This document shows, in pieces, positions 5,482 through 25,938 of a stretch of DNA of 64,000 bases. Under the pieces are notes generated by a model that was not told the origin of the DNA, did no database searches, and saw nothing but the letters and a program-made list of their open reading frames with translations. The translations under genes were made by a program, and so were the position numbers. The first letter of the stretch is position 1; every line of letters begins with the position of its first letter. Source of the stretch: Haloglomus salinum (GTDB lineage Archaea; Halobacteriota; Halobacteria; Halobacteriales; Haloarculaceae); contig NZ_CP101153.1 of the NCBI RefSeq assembly GCF_024298825.1, positions 1,426,001 through 1,490,000 of the forward strand. The letters run 5' to 3'.

Positions 5482-6345
5482 GTGAGCGACATCGAGAGCC
5501 TCACCGTGCAGGGCGTCGAGGTCCCCCGGCTCGGCCTCGGGACCTGGCGGCTGACCGGCGACGACTGCCGCGAGGCCGTCGAGACCGCGCTCGACCTGGG
5601 CTACCGCCACATCGACACCGCACAGGTGTACACGAACGAGCGGCAGGTCGGTGACGCGCTGGCCGCAAGCGACGTGCCCCGCGAGGACGTGTTCCTCGCC
5701 ACCAAGCTCGGGCCCGAGAGCCGAGCGTACGACGACGTGCTCCGGACGACCGAGGAGAGCCTCGCCCGCCTCGGCACGGACTATCTCGACCTGCTGCTCG
5801 TCCACTGGCCCAACGGCCGGCCGCCGGGGTCGCCGCCGAACCCGCTCGCCGCGGCGCCCGACCACGAGGAGACGCTCCGCGCGATGAACGAACTCGTCGA
5901 TGCCGGGAAGGTCCGGAACGTCGGCGTCTCGAACTTCAGCGTCGACGAACTTGACACGGCCCGGGAGCTGAGCGACGCGCCGGTCCTCACGAACCAGGTC
6001 CAGTACCACCCGTTCTGGGACCAGCAGGACCTGCGCTCGTACTGCCGGGTCCACGACGTGCTCCTGACGGCGTACTCGCCGCTGGGCCACGGGGGCGTGC
6101 TCGACGACCCCGTTCTGGAGCGTATCGCCCGCCGGCACGCGAAGACGCCCGCACAGGTCGCGCTCCGCTGGCTCGTCCAGCAAGAGCAGGTCGCCACCAT
6201 CCCGAAGGCCACGAGCCGCGAGCATCTGGCGGCGAACATGGCGATATTCGACTTCGAGCTGACCGAGGCGGAGATGGCCGAGATCCGCCGTCCCTCGAAG
6301 TACGAGACGCTGAAAGGGTTCCTGAAGGCTCGCGTGAGCGGATAG
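5482..6345 (+). CDS. Aldo/keto reductase
   Basis: The chosen start is GTG at 5482, giving the family-typical N-terminus SDIESLTVQGVEVPRLGLGTWRL and 287 residues, close to the usual AKR length. Signature 1 (GYRHIDTAQVYTNERQVG) contains the catalytic Asp and Tyr. The catalytic Lys is in LATKLG and the His in LLLVHWPNG. The C-terminal NADP-binding motif is TIPKATSREHLAAN. It would reduce carbonyl compounds with NAD(P)H in the cytoplasm; the substrate cannot be told. An upstream extension in the same frame overlaps the divergent UspA gene and looks non-coding. Confidence 0.92.
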   Translation: MSDIESLTVQGVEVPRLGLGTWRLTGDDCREAVETALDLGYRHIDTAQVYTNERQVGDALAASDVPREDVFLATKLGPESRAYDDVLRTTEESLARLGTDYLDLLLVHWPNGRPPGSPPNPLAAAPDHEETLRAMNELVDAGKVRNVGVSNFSVDELDTARELSDAPVLTNQVQYHPFWDQQDLRSYCRVHDVLLTAYSPLGHGGVLDDPVLERIARRHAKTPAQVALRWLVQQEQVATIPKATSREHLAANMAIFDFELTEAEMAEIRRPSKYETLKGFLKARVSG

Positions 6346-6360: not shown

Positions 6361-6963
6361 TCACTCGTCCCCGGCTTCGACTCTGGTGTCTCCATCCGCC
6401 AGCCGCAGGTCGCCGCCACATTCGCCACACCGGTACTCGTCGACCCGCCGGACCAGCTTCGACTCGCGGTACCGCGCCAGCGCCGCGTCGCAGTCCTCGC
6501 AGACCACCCACCACTCCGGTGTCGTGAACAGTTCGCAGGAGACACACGTGTCGAGGCGCTCGGCCCACCGCTCGAACCGTTCGCCGTGGGAGCCGTCGCC
6601 GTACTCGTTCAGCAGGTGGACGTGGACGAGTTCGTGCCGGACGGTCGATGCCATCGCGGCCCAGCCGCGCCGCTCGAAGTAACCCCACGTGAGCACGACC
6701 ACCTCCGGCTCGTCGTCGCGGTAGCGGACCTGTCCGGCCCGACGCTTCGCGCGCCGGCTGACCTGCCAGTCGAGGCGCCCCACGTCGGCCGAGAGACCGA
6801 ACGCATCGACCACCTCGCGAGCGTACAGTTTGCAGGCGGCGAGGAACTCCGCCTCGGAGGCATCCGTATCGACGGCGTAGTACGCCGGGTCGATTCGGGA
6901 GTCGCCGTCGTCCGCCGCCGCACGCTCGGTCGCGTCGGGGGCCGCGTCGTCACCCGGCGTCAC
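6361..6963 (-). CDS. SprT-like zinc metalloprotease domain protein
   Basis: The start is set at GTG 6963, because this GTG overlaps the TGA of the upstream small gene in a 4-base GTGA junction typical of coupled translation. The 200-residue protein has the zinc-protease helix STVRHELVHVHLLNEYGDG (HExxH-like, here HELVH) followed by a third ligand region (SHGERFERWAERL), then a zinc ribbon made of CVSC, CEDC and CGEC pairs near the C-terminus. This matches the SprT-like family, related to SPRTN, which degrades DNA-protein crosslinks in eukaryotes. A role in protein-DNA crosslink repair is possible but not shown in archaea. Confidence 0.85.
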   Translation of the reverse strand: MTPGDDAAPDATERAAADDGDSRIDPAYYAVDTDASEAEFLAACKLYAREVVDAFGLSADVGRLDWQVSRRAKRRAGQVRYRDDEPEVVVLTWGYFERRGWAAMASTVRHELVHVHLLNEYGDGSHGERFERWAERLDTCVSCELFTTPEWWVVCEDCDAALARYRESKLVRRVDEYRCGECGGDLRLADGDTRVEAGDE

Positions 6964-21884: not shown

Positions 21885-22300
21885 ACTCAGGGGCCCGCGG
21901 CTCGCTGCGCTCCTCGCTCCGGTCGCTTCGCTCCCTCCACTGCGGTGCTTGCGTCGCCGGGGACCCGCTGAGCGCGCTCGCCCTTCGATTCCACCAGGAC
22001 GTTGACCGTTCCACGGAGCGGCGGCCCTGCCCTTCCCCGGGTCGCGTGGGCCTCGCGTGCGCTCGGCCACGCGCTCCCGGCCCGTGGACTGGTCGGCCAG
22101 CCGGTTCCGGGACCAGGAAGCGCGCCGGTGCCACCCGCGTGTGAGACCGCGAGCGCAGCGAGCGAGTCGAACACTACCGGCGCCGGCGCGGGGAGGGGTG
22201 GGGGCACTCGCACTCCGCTGGAACCACCACGCGCCTCGCTCGACCCGAAACGGTCCCCTTGGCGGACTCGAAGCTGAGCCGAGCGAAGCGAGGCGAAGGT

Positions 22301-22320
22301 CGGCAGAGCTTGCTCTGCCG
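22301..22320. repeat. Perfect hairpin inside the element
   Basis: CGGCAGAGC-TT-GCTCTGCCG forms a 9-bp perfect stem with a 2-base loop, about 85 bases from the right inverted repeat. It could be a recognition or hairpin structure of the element, or a transcription attenuator. Confidence 0.6.
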
Positions 22321-22405
22321 GAAGGCGAGCGCTCTCGAACCCTCCCGGCCGACGCAAGCACGCGAGCGTAGCGAGCGCGCGCAACGAGGCCCGGGGTGGT
22401 CGAGA

Positions 22406-22437
22406 GCGCGAGGGCTTCGTAGCCGGTCCTGTTGTCG
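22406..22437 (-). repeat. Right terminal inverted repeat
   Basis: Reverse-complement partner of 21853-21884. It begins with GCGCGAGGGCTTCGTAG (22406-22422) and ends CCTGTTGTCG. AT-rich DNA starts immediately after it (22438 onward), leading into the HNH gene promoter. Confidence 0.7.
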
Positions 22438-22574
22438 ATAGATATATGATTTTGAAAATCGCCCACATATTCTATTTGTTTGAATTATTATCAACTAAAT
22501 TGGGTTACATTCCCATAATTTCCCGTCCGCACAAAGCTTCAAATACCAGTCCCGGCCGAAGACCCGACACGCCT

Positions 22575-23594
22575 ATGACCGGTGACGCCCGAACCGATTT
22601 CGTGACCCAGGGGGCCGACACATCGAGCGACGAACAAAGCTGGGAAGATCCCAGAGATGGCCGACCCTGGCAGGAAGAGAGCCGGCTCAGGCGACTCTAC
22701 ATCAAGGAAGGACTGAGTACGTACGATATCGCTGAAAGGCTCGGATGCAGTCGGCCGACGGTTTCGAACTGGCTGGAGCGGTTCGGGATAGAGCGAACAG
22801 GGCGACAGCCCGAGCCGTGTGTGCTCTCCGACGAATCACTTCTCCGAGGTCTGTACGTGGAACGAGGACTCTCTCTTTCTGATGTCGCACAGGAAGCCGG
22901 CTGCAGCATATGGAAGACCCGGGCCTGGCTTCGGCGGCACGGAATCGAAACCAGAACACCGGGGGAGCACAACCGTAACGAGCTACTAGAAGACGAGGGA
23001 TGGCTCCGCGAACAGTACGTGGAAAAAGAGCTATCAACCCCCACCATCGCCGAGAAGGCCGATTCGTCCGCCCGGACGGTCTCAGAGTGGCTTCGCAAGC
23101 ACGAAATCGATATCCCGCGGCATCTGTCGGAAGAAACGAGAGAGACGTTGGCGGACCCCAGCCGAATGACCCACCTCTACACCGATCGAGGTCTCACGGG
23201 GATGGAGATCGCGGAAGAACTGGATTGTTCAGCAACAGTCGTATACGAACACCTCCAGCAGCATGGCTTGACCAACTACGAGATGGTCGGCGACGATCAT
23301 CCTCGATGGAGGGGCGGAGAGTACGCCTACGGCGAAGGATGGAACGATGCGAAGCGTGAGGCCGTTCGGGACCGAGACGACAATCGCTGCTGTTTGTGCG
23401 GGATGACCCAGCGGGAACATCAAGACGAACGTGGTTCGAAGCTCCCCGTCCACCACGTCCGAAAGGCTCGAAACGTCGACGACCCGGAAAAGCGGAATGG
23501 GATGGGGAATCTAATCACGTTGTGTCACAGCTGCCACTCCATCGCCGAGAAGATGACACCAGAGCTACCGGAGGGGATAGATGACCGACGATGA
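22575..23594 (+). CDS. Protein with four HTH repeats and a C-terminal HNH endonuclease domain
   Basis: The 339-residue protein has four tandem helix-turn-helix units of about 50 residues, each with the pattern LY-x3-GLS-x2-DIAE-x2-GCS: about residues 38-73, 91-124, 142-177 and 198-232. They lead into an HNH nuclease domain: zinc pairs C272/C275 (RCCLCGMTQ) and C317/C320, with the HNH His-His at 293-294 (LPVHHVRKARN) and GNLITLCHSCHS. The HTH array would give sequence-specific DNA binding. GC content is clearly lower than in neighbouring genes. Its stop overlaps the helicase start by 14 bases. A freestanding homing-type endonuclease fits best; a phage-derived or defence nuclease is the main alternative. 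TATA-like TTCAAATACC lies at 22535-22545. Confidence 0.82.
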   Translation: MTGDARTDFVTQGADTSSDEQSWEDPRDGRPWQEESRLRRLYIKEGLSTYDIAERLGCSRPTVSNWLERFGIERTGRQPEPCVLSDESLLRGLYVERGLSLSDVAQEAGCSIWKTRAWLRRHGIETRTPGEHNRNELLEDEGWLREQYVEKELSTPTIAEKADSSARTVSEWLRKHEIDIPRHLSEETRETLADPSRMTHLYTDRGLTGMEIAEELDCSATVVYEHLQQHGLTNYEMVGDDHPRWRGGEYAYGEGWNDAKREAVRDRDDNRCCLCGMTQREHQDERGSKLPVHHVRKARNVDDPEKRNGMGNLITLCHSCHSIAEKMTPELPEGIDDRR

Positions 23595-23739
23595 CGATAA
23601 TCAATCGTGGGGGCCGATTTTTCCGTACGAATCCCCCTACAGGGAGCAACTAAACGGTATTGAAGAAACGATTGAAGTAGCACAAGATTCTGGCTACTCG
23701 GTCATCGAGGGGGCCTGCGGAACTGGAAAGACGCTGTTA
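23581..23739 (+). other. AT-rich 'recoded' 5' end of the helicase gene
   Basis: The first 53 codons contain ATT three times, plus GTA, GCA, CAA, CTA, TCT, ACT, GGA, AGG and TTA; nearly all are rare in the rest of this gene. The change back to C/G-ending codons comes just after the P-loop codons (GACGTGKTLL). The protein sequence stays intact and family-like across the junction. This marks a recombination or replacement boundary next to the HNH gene. Confidence 0.7.
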
Positions 23740-25938
23740 GCGCTCACCGCGGGCATCCAGCTGGTCCGGGACCCGGACACGCAGTACGAGCGCGTCCTCG
23801 CGCTGACGAGCGTCAAACAGCAGCTCCGACAGTTCGAACAGGACCTCCGTATCATCAACGACAACCTGCCCGCGGACTGGAACCCCGTCTCCGGGCTCAC
23901 GCTGGTCGGGAAGGCCGACGTCTGCGCGTACAACGTCGCCGGGACGGGCGGCATCGACGATTCGAACGTCTACGAGCGCTGCGAGGGGCTCCGCGAGCGG
24001 ACGCGCGCGCTGGCGGACGACACGAGCGCGGGGGACCTCGCGTCGCAGGCTCGCTCCCAGCAGGTCGGGCTGGCCGACTCGGGCGCGAGCGGCGGCGACG
24101 CGGCGGACTACCTCGAGGCCGCGGGCGGGATGGCGCCCTATCCCGAGGGAACACCTGAATCCGGGAACGACGTTGAGTACTGCCCGTTCTACGCGCAGTT
24201 CCTCGAGGACCTGCCCGACGACGGCGAGGCCGCCGAGGCGGTCCCGTTCGACTGGACGGAGACCGGCCACATCGACGCACAGGAACTCACGCGGCTCTCG
24301 GTGGACGCCGGGACGTGCCCGCACTCCGTGATGGGGGCGCTCCTCCCGGAGGTAGAGGTCGTCGTCGGGAACTACTACCACGCGTTCGACCCGACAACGG
24401 TCGAGACGTTCACGGGCGCGCTGCTGGACGACGAGACGTTCGTCGTCTGCGACGAGGCCCACATGCTCGAACCGCGCGTGCGCGACCTCGTCAGCGACGG
24501 CATCGCGGACGTCTCGCTGCGCGACGCCGAGAGCGAACTCGCACAGGTCGTCCAGCCGCTGACGATGACCGACGAGACCGGCCGCCAGACGGGACCCGTC
24601 GACCGCATCCGCGCCGAGTTATCGGACGCCACGGTCGACCTGGAGGACCTCCAGCGGACGCGCCAGTTCCTCCGCGACCTCCGCGAGGAGCTCGCCCGGC
24701 AGGTCGAGTCGTACCTCGACCGCGAGCACCGGGGTTGGCGGGCGAATCTCAACGATCTCCCCGACGACGAGATTCCCCTGCGCGACCCCGAACGGCCCCG
24801 TACCGACGACCTCACGCAGTGGGCCGAGAACGAGGGGTACGACGAACGAGACTGGGTGCGTGCCGAGAGCGCGTGTGCCGTCGCCGCGCGCATCCTGAAC
24901 AGCGTCGAGGAGGAGGACACCAAACGGACCGCGCCCGCCGTCGGGCGCGCACTGGGCGCGTGGGCGCGTGCCGACCACGTCGACCACTTCCGCGAGGTCG
25001 AACTCGAGCGGACGTGGGACGACGCCCAGCCGACGGATTCGTGGCGACGGGCGTACAACGCGCGCTTCGCGCTCCACAACTGCCTGCCAGGGGATGCCAT
25101 CGCCGAGCGCCTCGACGAGTTCGGCGGCGGCGTCCTGATGAGCGCGACCCTCGAACCGCTCGACGCCTTCGCCGAGGTGACCGGACTGAACCACCTCGAA
25201 CGCGAGGAGGACCGGCCCGTCATCACCCGGAGCTACGGACTGGACTTCCCGCCGGAGCACCGCGAGTCGTTCGCGGTCGCGGCGCCGCCATTCACCTTCG
25301 AGAACCGCGGTGCGCCGGGCGAGGAGACCGAGGCCCGGCGCATCCACGCGTCGGCACTCCGTGAGGTCGCCACGGTGTCGGGCAACGTCCTCGTCGGGAT
25401 GCCCAACTACGCCGAGGCCGAGTGGGCCGCCGGCTACCTCCGCGACGCGGTCGACAAGCCGGTCCTGCTCGACGAGTCCTCCGCGGACGACGTGACCGAG
25501 GACCTTAAACAGGAGTTCTTCGACGGGTCCGGGAAGGTCCTCGTCACCTCGCTCCGCGGGACGCTGACGGAGGGCGTCGACTACCGCGGTGACCGGCTCA
25601 GCGCGGCCGTGGTCTGCGGGGTGCCGCTCATCAACACCGCCAGCCCCCGGACGCGGGCGCTCCGGACGGCGTACGACCGGCGGTTCGGTGACGGCTTCGA
25701 GTACGCGCTCACGGTCCCCGCCGTCCGGAAGGCCCGGCAGGCCGTGGGGCGGGTGATTCGGGGTCCCGAGGAGACGGGCGTCCGGGTGCTGCTGGACGAG
25801 CGCTACGCCCGCGACACGTGGAACAGCGTCCGTGAGTACCTCGGGCCGGACCGCGAGGAGTTCCAGCCGGTCTCGCCGGACATGCTCTCGCTCGGGCTGG
25901 ACCGTTTCCGCGGGACGGCCGGCGACGGTACGGAGTGA
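23581..25938 (+). CDS. XPD/DinG-type superfamily 2 DNA helicase, Fe-S type
   Basis: This 785-residue helicase has the Walker A motif GACGTGKT at residues 44-51, the DEAH box (VVCDEAHMLE, near residue 290), motif III-like GGVLMSATLEPLDAF and motif VI QAVGRVIRGPEETGVRVLL. Four Cys between Walker A and DEAH (near residues 116, 132, 199, 245) are placed like the 4Fe-4S ligands of XPD. It should unwind DNA 5'-to-3' in repair. Codons 1-53 use many AT-rich codons (ATT, GTA, CAA, CTA, TTA, ACT), then the gene switches sharply to GC-rich codons. Its ATG lies inside the end of the HNH gene. Confidence 0.92.
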   Translation: MTDDDDNQSWGPIFPYESPYREQLNGIEETIEVAQDSGYSVIEGACGTGKTLLALTAGIQLVRDPDTQYERVLALTSVKQQLRQFEQDLRIINDNLPADWNPVSGLTLVGKADVCAYNVAGTGGIDDSNVYERCEGLRERTRALADDTSAGDLASQARSQQVGLADSGASGGDAADYLEAAGGMAPYPEGTPESGNDVEYCPFYAQFLEDLPDDGEAAEAVPFDWTETGHIDAQELTRLSVDAGTCPHSVMGALLPEVEVVVGNYYHAFDPTTVETFTGALLDDETFVVCDEAHMLEPRVRDLVSDGIADVSLRDAESELAQVVQPLTMTDETGRQTGPVDRIRAELSDATVDLEDLQRTRQFLRDLREELARQVESYLDREHRGWRANLNDLPDDEIPLRDPERPRTDDLTQWAENEGYDERDWVRAESACAVAARILNSVEEEDTKRTAPAVGRALGAWARADHVDHFREVELERTWDDAQPTDSWRRAYNARFALHNCLPGDAIAERLDEFGGGVLMSATLEPLDAFAEVTGLNHLEREEDRPVITRSYGLDFPPEHRESFAVAAPPFTFENRGAPGEETEARRIHASALREVATVSGNVLVGMPNYAEAEWAAGYLRDAVDKPVLLDESSADDVTEDLKQEFFDGSGKVLVTSLRGTLTEGVDYRGDRLSAAVVCGVPLINTASPRTRALRTAYDRRFGDGFEYALTVPAVRKARQAVGRVIRGPEETGVRVLLDERYARDTWNSVREYLGPDREEFQPVSPDMLSLGLDRFRGTAGDGTE

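Follow-up and report, generated by a model that had tools for sequence, protein, structure and literature searches.

A haloarchaeal HNH gene that very probably forms a homing element with the recoded start of the gene it targets

The HNH and helicase genes

We analysed a 64,000-nucleotide stretch (the window) of the high-GC chromosome of the haloarchaeon Haloglomus salinum (NZ_CP101153.1, positions 1,426,001 to 1,490,000), in which an HNH endonuclease gene encoding 339 amino acids (22575–23594) runs into the ORF of a Rad3/XPD–DinG-type helicase (23581–25938). All features described here lie on the forward strand. The HNH stop codon and the helicase start share 14 bases (23581–23594), an overlap that would allow coupled translation.

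The HNH protein matches PHROG 8446 (‘HNH endonuclease’, E = 3 × 10−73). It comprises four helix–turn–helix (HTH) repeats, which are matched by HTH_23, and a C-terminal HNH domain (residues 238–330; 23286–23564) with matches to HNH families, the catalytic His/Asn/His set (invariant HH, N and H) and four Cys residues in zinc-binding CxxC...CxxC pairs. Its predicted structure has HTH helices and a beta–beta–alpha end, with low to middling overall confidence (pLDDT 70). A fold search with this model found no significant match in the PDB; the GVE2 HNH protein and Cap5 were among the sub-threshold matches. Full-length relatives in the plasmids, phages, and genome and viral contigs searched reach about 42% identity at best, and none of the relatives inspected has a helicase as a neighbour.

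No Rfam match to a group I intron was found in the window at positions 22000–24500 up to E = 1. The HNH ORF is closed by its own stop at 23594 and no intein domain is among its listed matches. On these searches, the element in the window is neither an intron nor an intein.

A codon-usage break at the P-loop

Codon usage changes abruptly inside the helicase gene. GC3 is 0.55 over codons 1–53 (29/53) versus 0.92 afterwards (676/732; Fisher p = 4 × 10−12), and the maximum-likelihood change point falls after codon 53, at base 23739, a result reached by 0 of 2,000 permutations. The AT-rich stretch (23581–23739) runs through the Walker A motif (P-loop) GACGTGKT, which is encoded by codons 44–51 (23710–23733). 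A first-pass annotation of the window had pointed to both the 14-base overlap and the AT-rich start that ends at this motif, and both are borne out by the ORF coordinates and the GC3 counts.

Lower GC3 near the start occurs in some genes, and the pattern might be read as a 5′ codon ramp or another expression-related effect, with the HNH gene a co-transcribed neighbour. However, GC3 over the same stretch is at least 0.72 in 48 HNH-less haloarchaeal helicases (three alleles from the same genus and 45 others) and 0.48 in the window helicase, and the break falls where homology to other alleles is lost. On the basis of the 48 helicases we ruled out a GC3 ramp, and we give this explanation almost no weight. 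The N termini separate in the same way: all 48 HNH-less helicases have the type FGHxxPY, and the window helicase alone has FPYESPY.

Empty alleles define the junctions

The orthologous helicase occurs without an HNH gene in three genomes of the same genus (L002, L003 and L030), so that presence at this site is patchy, with one occupied allele and three empty ones. The helicase protein of the empty alleles begins M(T/A)GDARPDFVTEGAD(T/V)SSDD..., and the HNH protein of the window begins likewise (MTGDARTDFVTQGADTSSDE). Base-for-base alignment with the three alleles shows that DNA homology takes in the native start codon with some 59 coding bases (22575–22633; the start codon and about 19 codons), is then lost and returns at 23740. 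Thus, the HNH gene is inserted within the helicase ORF after approximately codon 20 and uses the native start codon, and a divergent segment, which brings its own ATG overlapping the HNH stop, takes the place of 65 native helicase codons that extend just beyond the P-loop. In total, 1,106 bp (22634–23739) stand in place of 196 bp of the native gene (L002, 1461–1656), with no homology to the same-genus alleles inside and about 84–95% DNA identity on either side.

Relative to L002, the nearest empty allele, identity over codons 9–53 is 53% at the nucleotide and 44% at the amino acid level (GC3 of 0.56 in the window versus 0.89 in L002), rising to 95% and 96% over codons 54–98 and to 95% and 99% over codons 54–300. 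The remainder of the gene (23740–25938), with matches to the Helicase_C_2, DEAD_2, rad3 and DinG models, is therefore native.

The first-pass annotation had proposed a comparison with HNH-less relatives, and it supports the view that the helicase start was replaced when the HNH gene arrived: the three same-genus alleles are GC-rich in this stretch and identity switches exactly at 23739/23740. We also looked for the outcomes that the annotation had named as counting against it—the same AT-rich codons in empty-site relatives, or a boundary that is not shared—and found neither. Two of its statements can be refined. The term ‘recoded’ holds for codon usage, but the change goes beyond synonymous substitution, as the protein itself has diverged (44% amino acid identity versus 96% just after). 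The HNH gene does separate the helicase from its old start; however, it takes that start and around 20 native codons as its own N terminus.

Divergence at the protein level could reflect ordinary horizontal replacement, in which the helicase 5′ end arrived on a recombination tract from a distant haloarchaeon, and an unrelated HNH gene either came along with it or inserted there by coincidence; haloarchaea recombine often. Against this, we found no close donor for the recoded start in 391 genomes of the class, and its 60 residues are 55–65% identical to those of all haloarchaeal helicases. The failure to trace a donor counts against the homing reading favoured below as well. Matches to this helicase that have an internal stop codon are reported in other haloarchaea (loci L005, L011, L013, L016 and L024).

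The same architecture at a HerA-like ATPase

A short native leader, an HNH gene, a recoded 5′ segment and a native remainder also occur, in this order, at a gene for a HerA-like ATPase. In g20, another haloarchaeal genus, two species represented by MAGs (QH_7_65_31 and QH_7_66_36) encode HNH homologues directly upstream of the ATPase. The junction is a 4-base ATGA overlap and ATPase GC3 is low over the first approximately 65 codons; in HNH-less g20 genomes, HerA has a native, GC-rich start. The recoded segment is 73–77% identical to the HNH-less g20 alleles at the nucleotide and 86–88% at the amino acid level, versus 88–90% and 93–97% downstream.

We searched 52 Halorubrum genomes and found HerA in 50. 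At least six carry occupied alleles (G314, G438, G110, G169, G299 and G440; named genomes among them are sp. 48-1-W, Hd13, A07HR67, amylolyticum and alkaliphilum), and the other alleles examined are empty. Here the HNH and HerA genes overlap by 8 bases and HerA is recoded up to about codon 80; across g20 and Halorubrum, the recoded stretch of occupied alleles runs from codon 1 to about codons 68–80. At the protein level, occupied alleles share 73% identity with empty Halorubrum alleles across the 5′ segment and 95% beyond it. Ahead of the HNH gene, the original HerA start persists together with 21 native codons as a leader ORF, the stop of which overlaps the HNH start in three HerA loci. More generally, the displaced old gene end lies beyond the endonuclease gene as a native leader of 14–21 codons, upstream of or fused to the HNH gene; L037 retains only the native start region.

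Phylogenies of the two parts of the gene disagree. The 5′ segments of the occupied Halorubrum alleles form one clade (support 100/100), whereas the gene bodies of these alleles are scattered among empty ones and their monophyly is rejected (AU test, p = 0.0005). This discordance indicates that the HNH gene and the recoded segment move as a unit into resident genes and, on these trees, that the two share a history separate from that of the rest of the gene. Such co-movement is predicted by homing and is unexpected under chance transfer. Because the helicase version is present in one genome only, we infer its mobility from HerA.

Independent evidence that the HerA P-loop does receive homing elements comes from another g20 genome (G426, contig C88; locus L066), in which a LAGLIDADG intein of more than 400 amino acids lies inside the Walker A motif.

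Viral and proviral loci

Comparisons among haloviruses and proviruses suggest that the same architecture is probably present at three further genes, encoding the terminase large subunit (TerL), ThyX and a tail-region protein. The TerL start of halovirus HVTV-1 shares 4 bases with an HNH gene that precedes it, and the sequence ahead of the HNH start resembles the native sequence upstream of the terminase in HCTV-1, which lacks an HNH gene at this place. Compared with HCTV-5, HVTV-1 TerL DNA is 72% identical around Walker A (protein, 86%) and 93% identical thereafter (p = 6 × 10−7), with the jump nine codons after the start of Walker A; HCTV-5 has a different HNH gene at the same place, so that an HNH gene precedes TerL in both of the viruses compared. 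At L038, the HNH gene opens with what is natively the start of a gene in the tail region, and a recoded copy of this start follows; the native arrangement is seen in halovirus Humcor1. Similarly, on viral contig L148, the HNH gene opens with the start of thyX and is followed by thyX with a recoded start. The N-terminal duplications in L038 and L148 outscore all 3,040 shuffled pairs; the comparators are single or distant.

The anatomy of the element, its junctions, its recurrence and its co-inheritance can all be read from these aligned sequences. They leave ordinary horizontal replacement very unlikely: an HNH gene is paired with an altered 5′ end, in the same orientation and with an overlap, at HerA in two families and again at viral TerL, and the occupied Halorubrum segments form one clade on scattered gene bodies.

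A second alternative is intronless homing of the kind described in phage T4, in which a free-standing HNH gene occupies an intergenic position and the changed 5′ end is a passive co-conversion tract rather than part of the element. Homing is routinely accompanied by co-conversion (PMC2988022), and HVTV-1 and HCTV-5 are rich in homing endonuclease genes (PMC3950731). However, the segment keeps its AT-rich codon usage and its clade across Halorubrum species; that is, it travels with the HNH gene. Furthermore, because the insertion is inside the target ORF, a working gene needs a substitute start and 5′ coding segment. We regard this alternative, too, as very unlikely.

Proposed homing mechanism

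The explanation that we strongly favour is a homing element in which the mobile unit consists of the HNH endonuclease gene and a recoded version of the 5′ end of the gene that it targets. The HNH protein would nick or cut the native (empty) allele close to what becomes the right-hand border of the recoded stretch, in or beside a conserved motif. Repair of the break from an occupied allele would then copy in the HNH gene with the recoded segment, with homology supplied on the left by the upstream region and native leader and on the right by the native body of the gene. Rescue of the gene product would come from the recoded segment, which, judging by its recoding, would resist being cut again, and translation of the rescued gene would be coupled to the HNH stop through ATGA or other short overlaps.

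We infer such cutting, the resistance of recoded DNA and the exact position of the cut. A target close to the right-hand border is probable: for the helicase and terminase this lies just past Walker A, and for HerA, in which the recoded stretch ends about 40 codons beyond the P-loop, around 40 codons past that motif. For the helicase and terminase, cutting at the P-loop itself is plausible; the P-loop of empty helicase alleles is a candidate target.

Relationship to known elements

Homing elements are usually classed as introns, inteins or free-standing genes. End-replacing elements—the WHO elements of yeasts and the mORFs of fungal mitochondria—have been proposed as a further class, and the cases that we found in print are fungal. 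No prokaryotic or viral example was found in the open-access papers searched. The closest known elements are WHO and the mORFs, which replace 3′ ends; the haloarchaeal element is a 5′, HNH version.

In Torulaspora and Lachancea, each homing event of a WHO element replaces the 3′ end of FBA1, so that the old end comes to lie past the WHO gene (Coughlan et al. 2020, PMC7282813). Both in that system and here, the endonuclease gene lies beside the host gene rather than being spliced from it, one end of the host gene is swapped for a divergent version (which is resistant in yeast), the displaced end persists on the other side of the endonuclease gene, and the histories of the two host-gene ends conflict, as they do here at Halorubrum HerA. 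However, WHO endonucleases are intein-derived, HO-related zinc-finger proteins that act in yeast nuclei on the 3′ end of an aldolase gene, FBA1, whereas the element described here has an HNH protein with HTH repeats, replaces the 5′ portion of NTPase genes in archaea and in viruses of archaea, and appropriates the start codon of its host gene. It is the WHO mode of action in mirror image, but it is excluded from WHO sensu stricto by its nuclease (HNH with HTH), the end replaced (5′) and its targets (helicase and HerA).

The mORFs of Allomyces atp6 and Glomus atp6, atp9, cox2 and nad3 bring foreign 3′ ends that encode nearly identical protein from DNA that is 64–81% identical (PMC3630166). They share with our element an endonuclease ORF that lies in a gene along with a foreign copy of the displaced part, and differ in being LAGLIDADG, mitochondrial and 3′ (C-terminal) rather than HNH, archaeal and 5′. 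The Seg and Mob genes of T4 (Mob being HNH) resemble the element in that they are free-standing endonuclease genes that overlap neighbouring ORFs and co-convert flanks, but as described they neither split a target ORF nor furnish a replacement 5′ end that has a start of its own, and their cut sites are hundreds to thousands of base pairs away (PMC2988022). The T4 genes lie outside the target ORF, whereas the insertions here are within the helicase and HerA ORFs. The HerA intein (G426, L066) occupies the same gene and the same conserved motif, but is removed by splicing; the HNH element lacks a splicing domain and carries stop and start codons of its own. Finally, synthetic home-and-rescue (HomeR) gene drives likewise cut an important gene and copy in a nuclease with a recoded functional version (PMC7968924), although these are engineered, Cas9-based and used in insects, and the analogy is one of design, not of kinship.

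On balance, we lean towards a broader view, in which a widespread and previously unrecognised class of prokaryotic and viral homing elements exists: diverse HNH genes that enter conserved genes (often those of P-loop NTPases) in their 5′ part, seize the native start codon and bring with them a recoded 5′ rescue segment that resists cleavage. If this is true, archaea and their viruses contain a natural home-and-rescue drive, with resistance alleles (recoded patches without an HNH gene) segregating in Halorubrum. That a mirror-image version occurs at several NTPase genes of unrelated type suggests that recoded rescue segments offer a general route into a conserved gene without splicing, and it provides a reason for chimeric 5′ ends in such genes. 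The prediction is that the native allele is cut and the recoded allele is not. Homing could be measured in haloarchaea because they mate and are genetically tractable, and they would offer a natural setting in which to study the coexistence of drive and resistance alleles.

Shortened, HNH-less and candidate loci

At L097 and L053 (Halorubrum alkaliphilum), a shortened HNH gene (223 amino acids, internal repeats lost) lies beside a recoded HerA start; these are possibly decaying elements. Six HNH-less Halorubrum HerA alleles (L242, L244, L254, L255, L259 and L264) retain the native start and P-loop but have an AT-rich recoded patch of about 90 bases, approximately from codon +13 to codon +45 past the P-loop. 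The patch forms one clade (99/95) that the gene body rejects (AU test, p = 0.013), and it may represent a resistance allele or a scar left by a different element. We dropped the reading of these patches as remnants of the HNH element because they form a clade of their own; it is further weakened in that the AT-ending codons they share in two-codon families can be convergent.

Five further HNH loci (L280 and L282–L285) were checked and none has the cassette. On two viral contigs, 4-base HNH overlaps lead into an RFC-like ATPase (L187, around position 6327; P-loop at residue 47) and a RecF/SMC-like ATPase (L152, around position 6366; P-loop at residue 29), and by their layout both loci are candidates for the same class of element. 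In HCTV-5 (L279, KC292027.1, 57500–70500), four HNH genes lie in a single virion-gene cluster of about 10 kb, one each preceding TerL, the portal gene, an ADP-ribosyltransferase gene (with a 4-base overlap) and a gene annotated as a sialidase.
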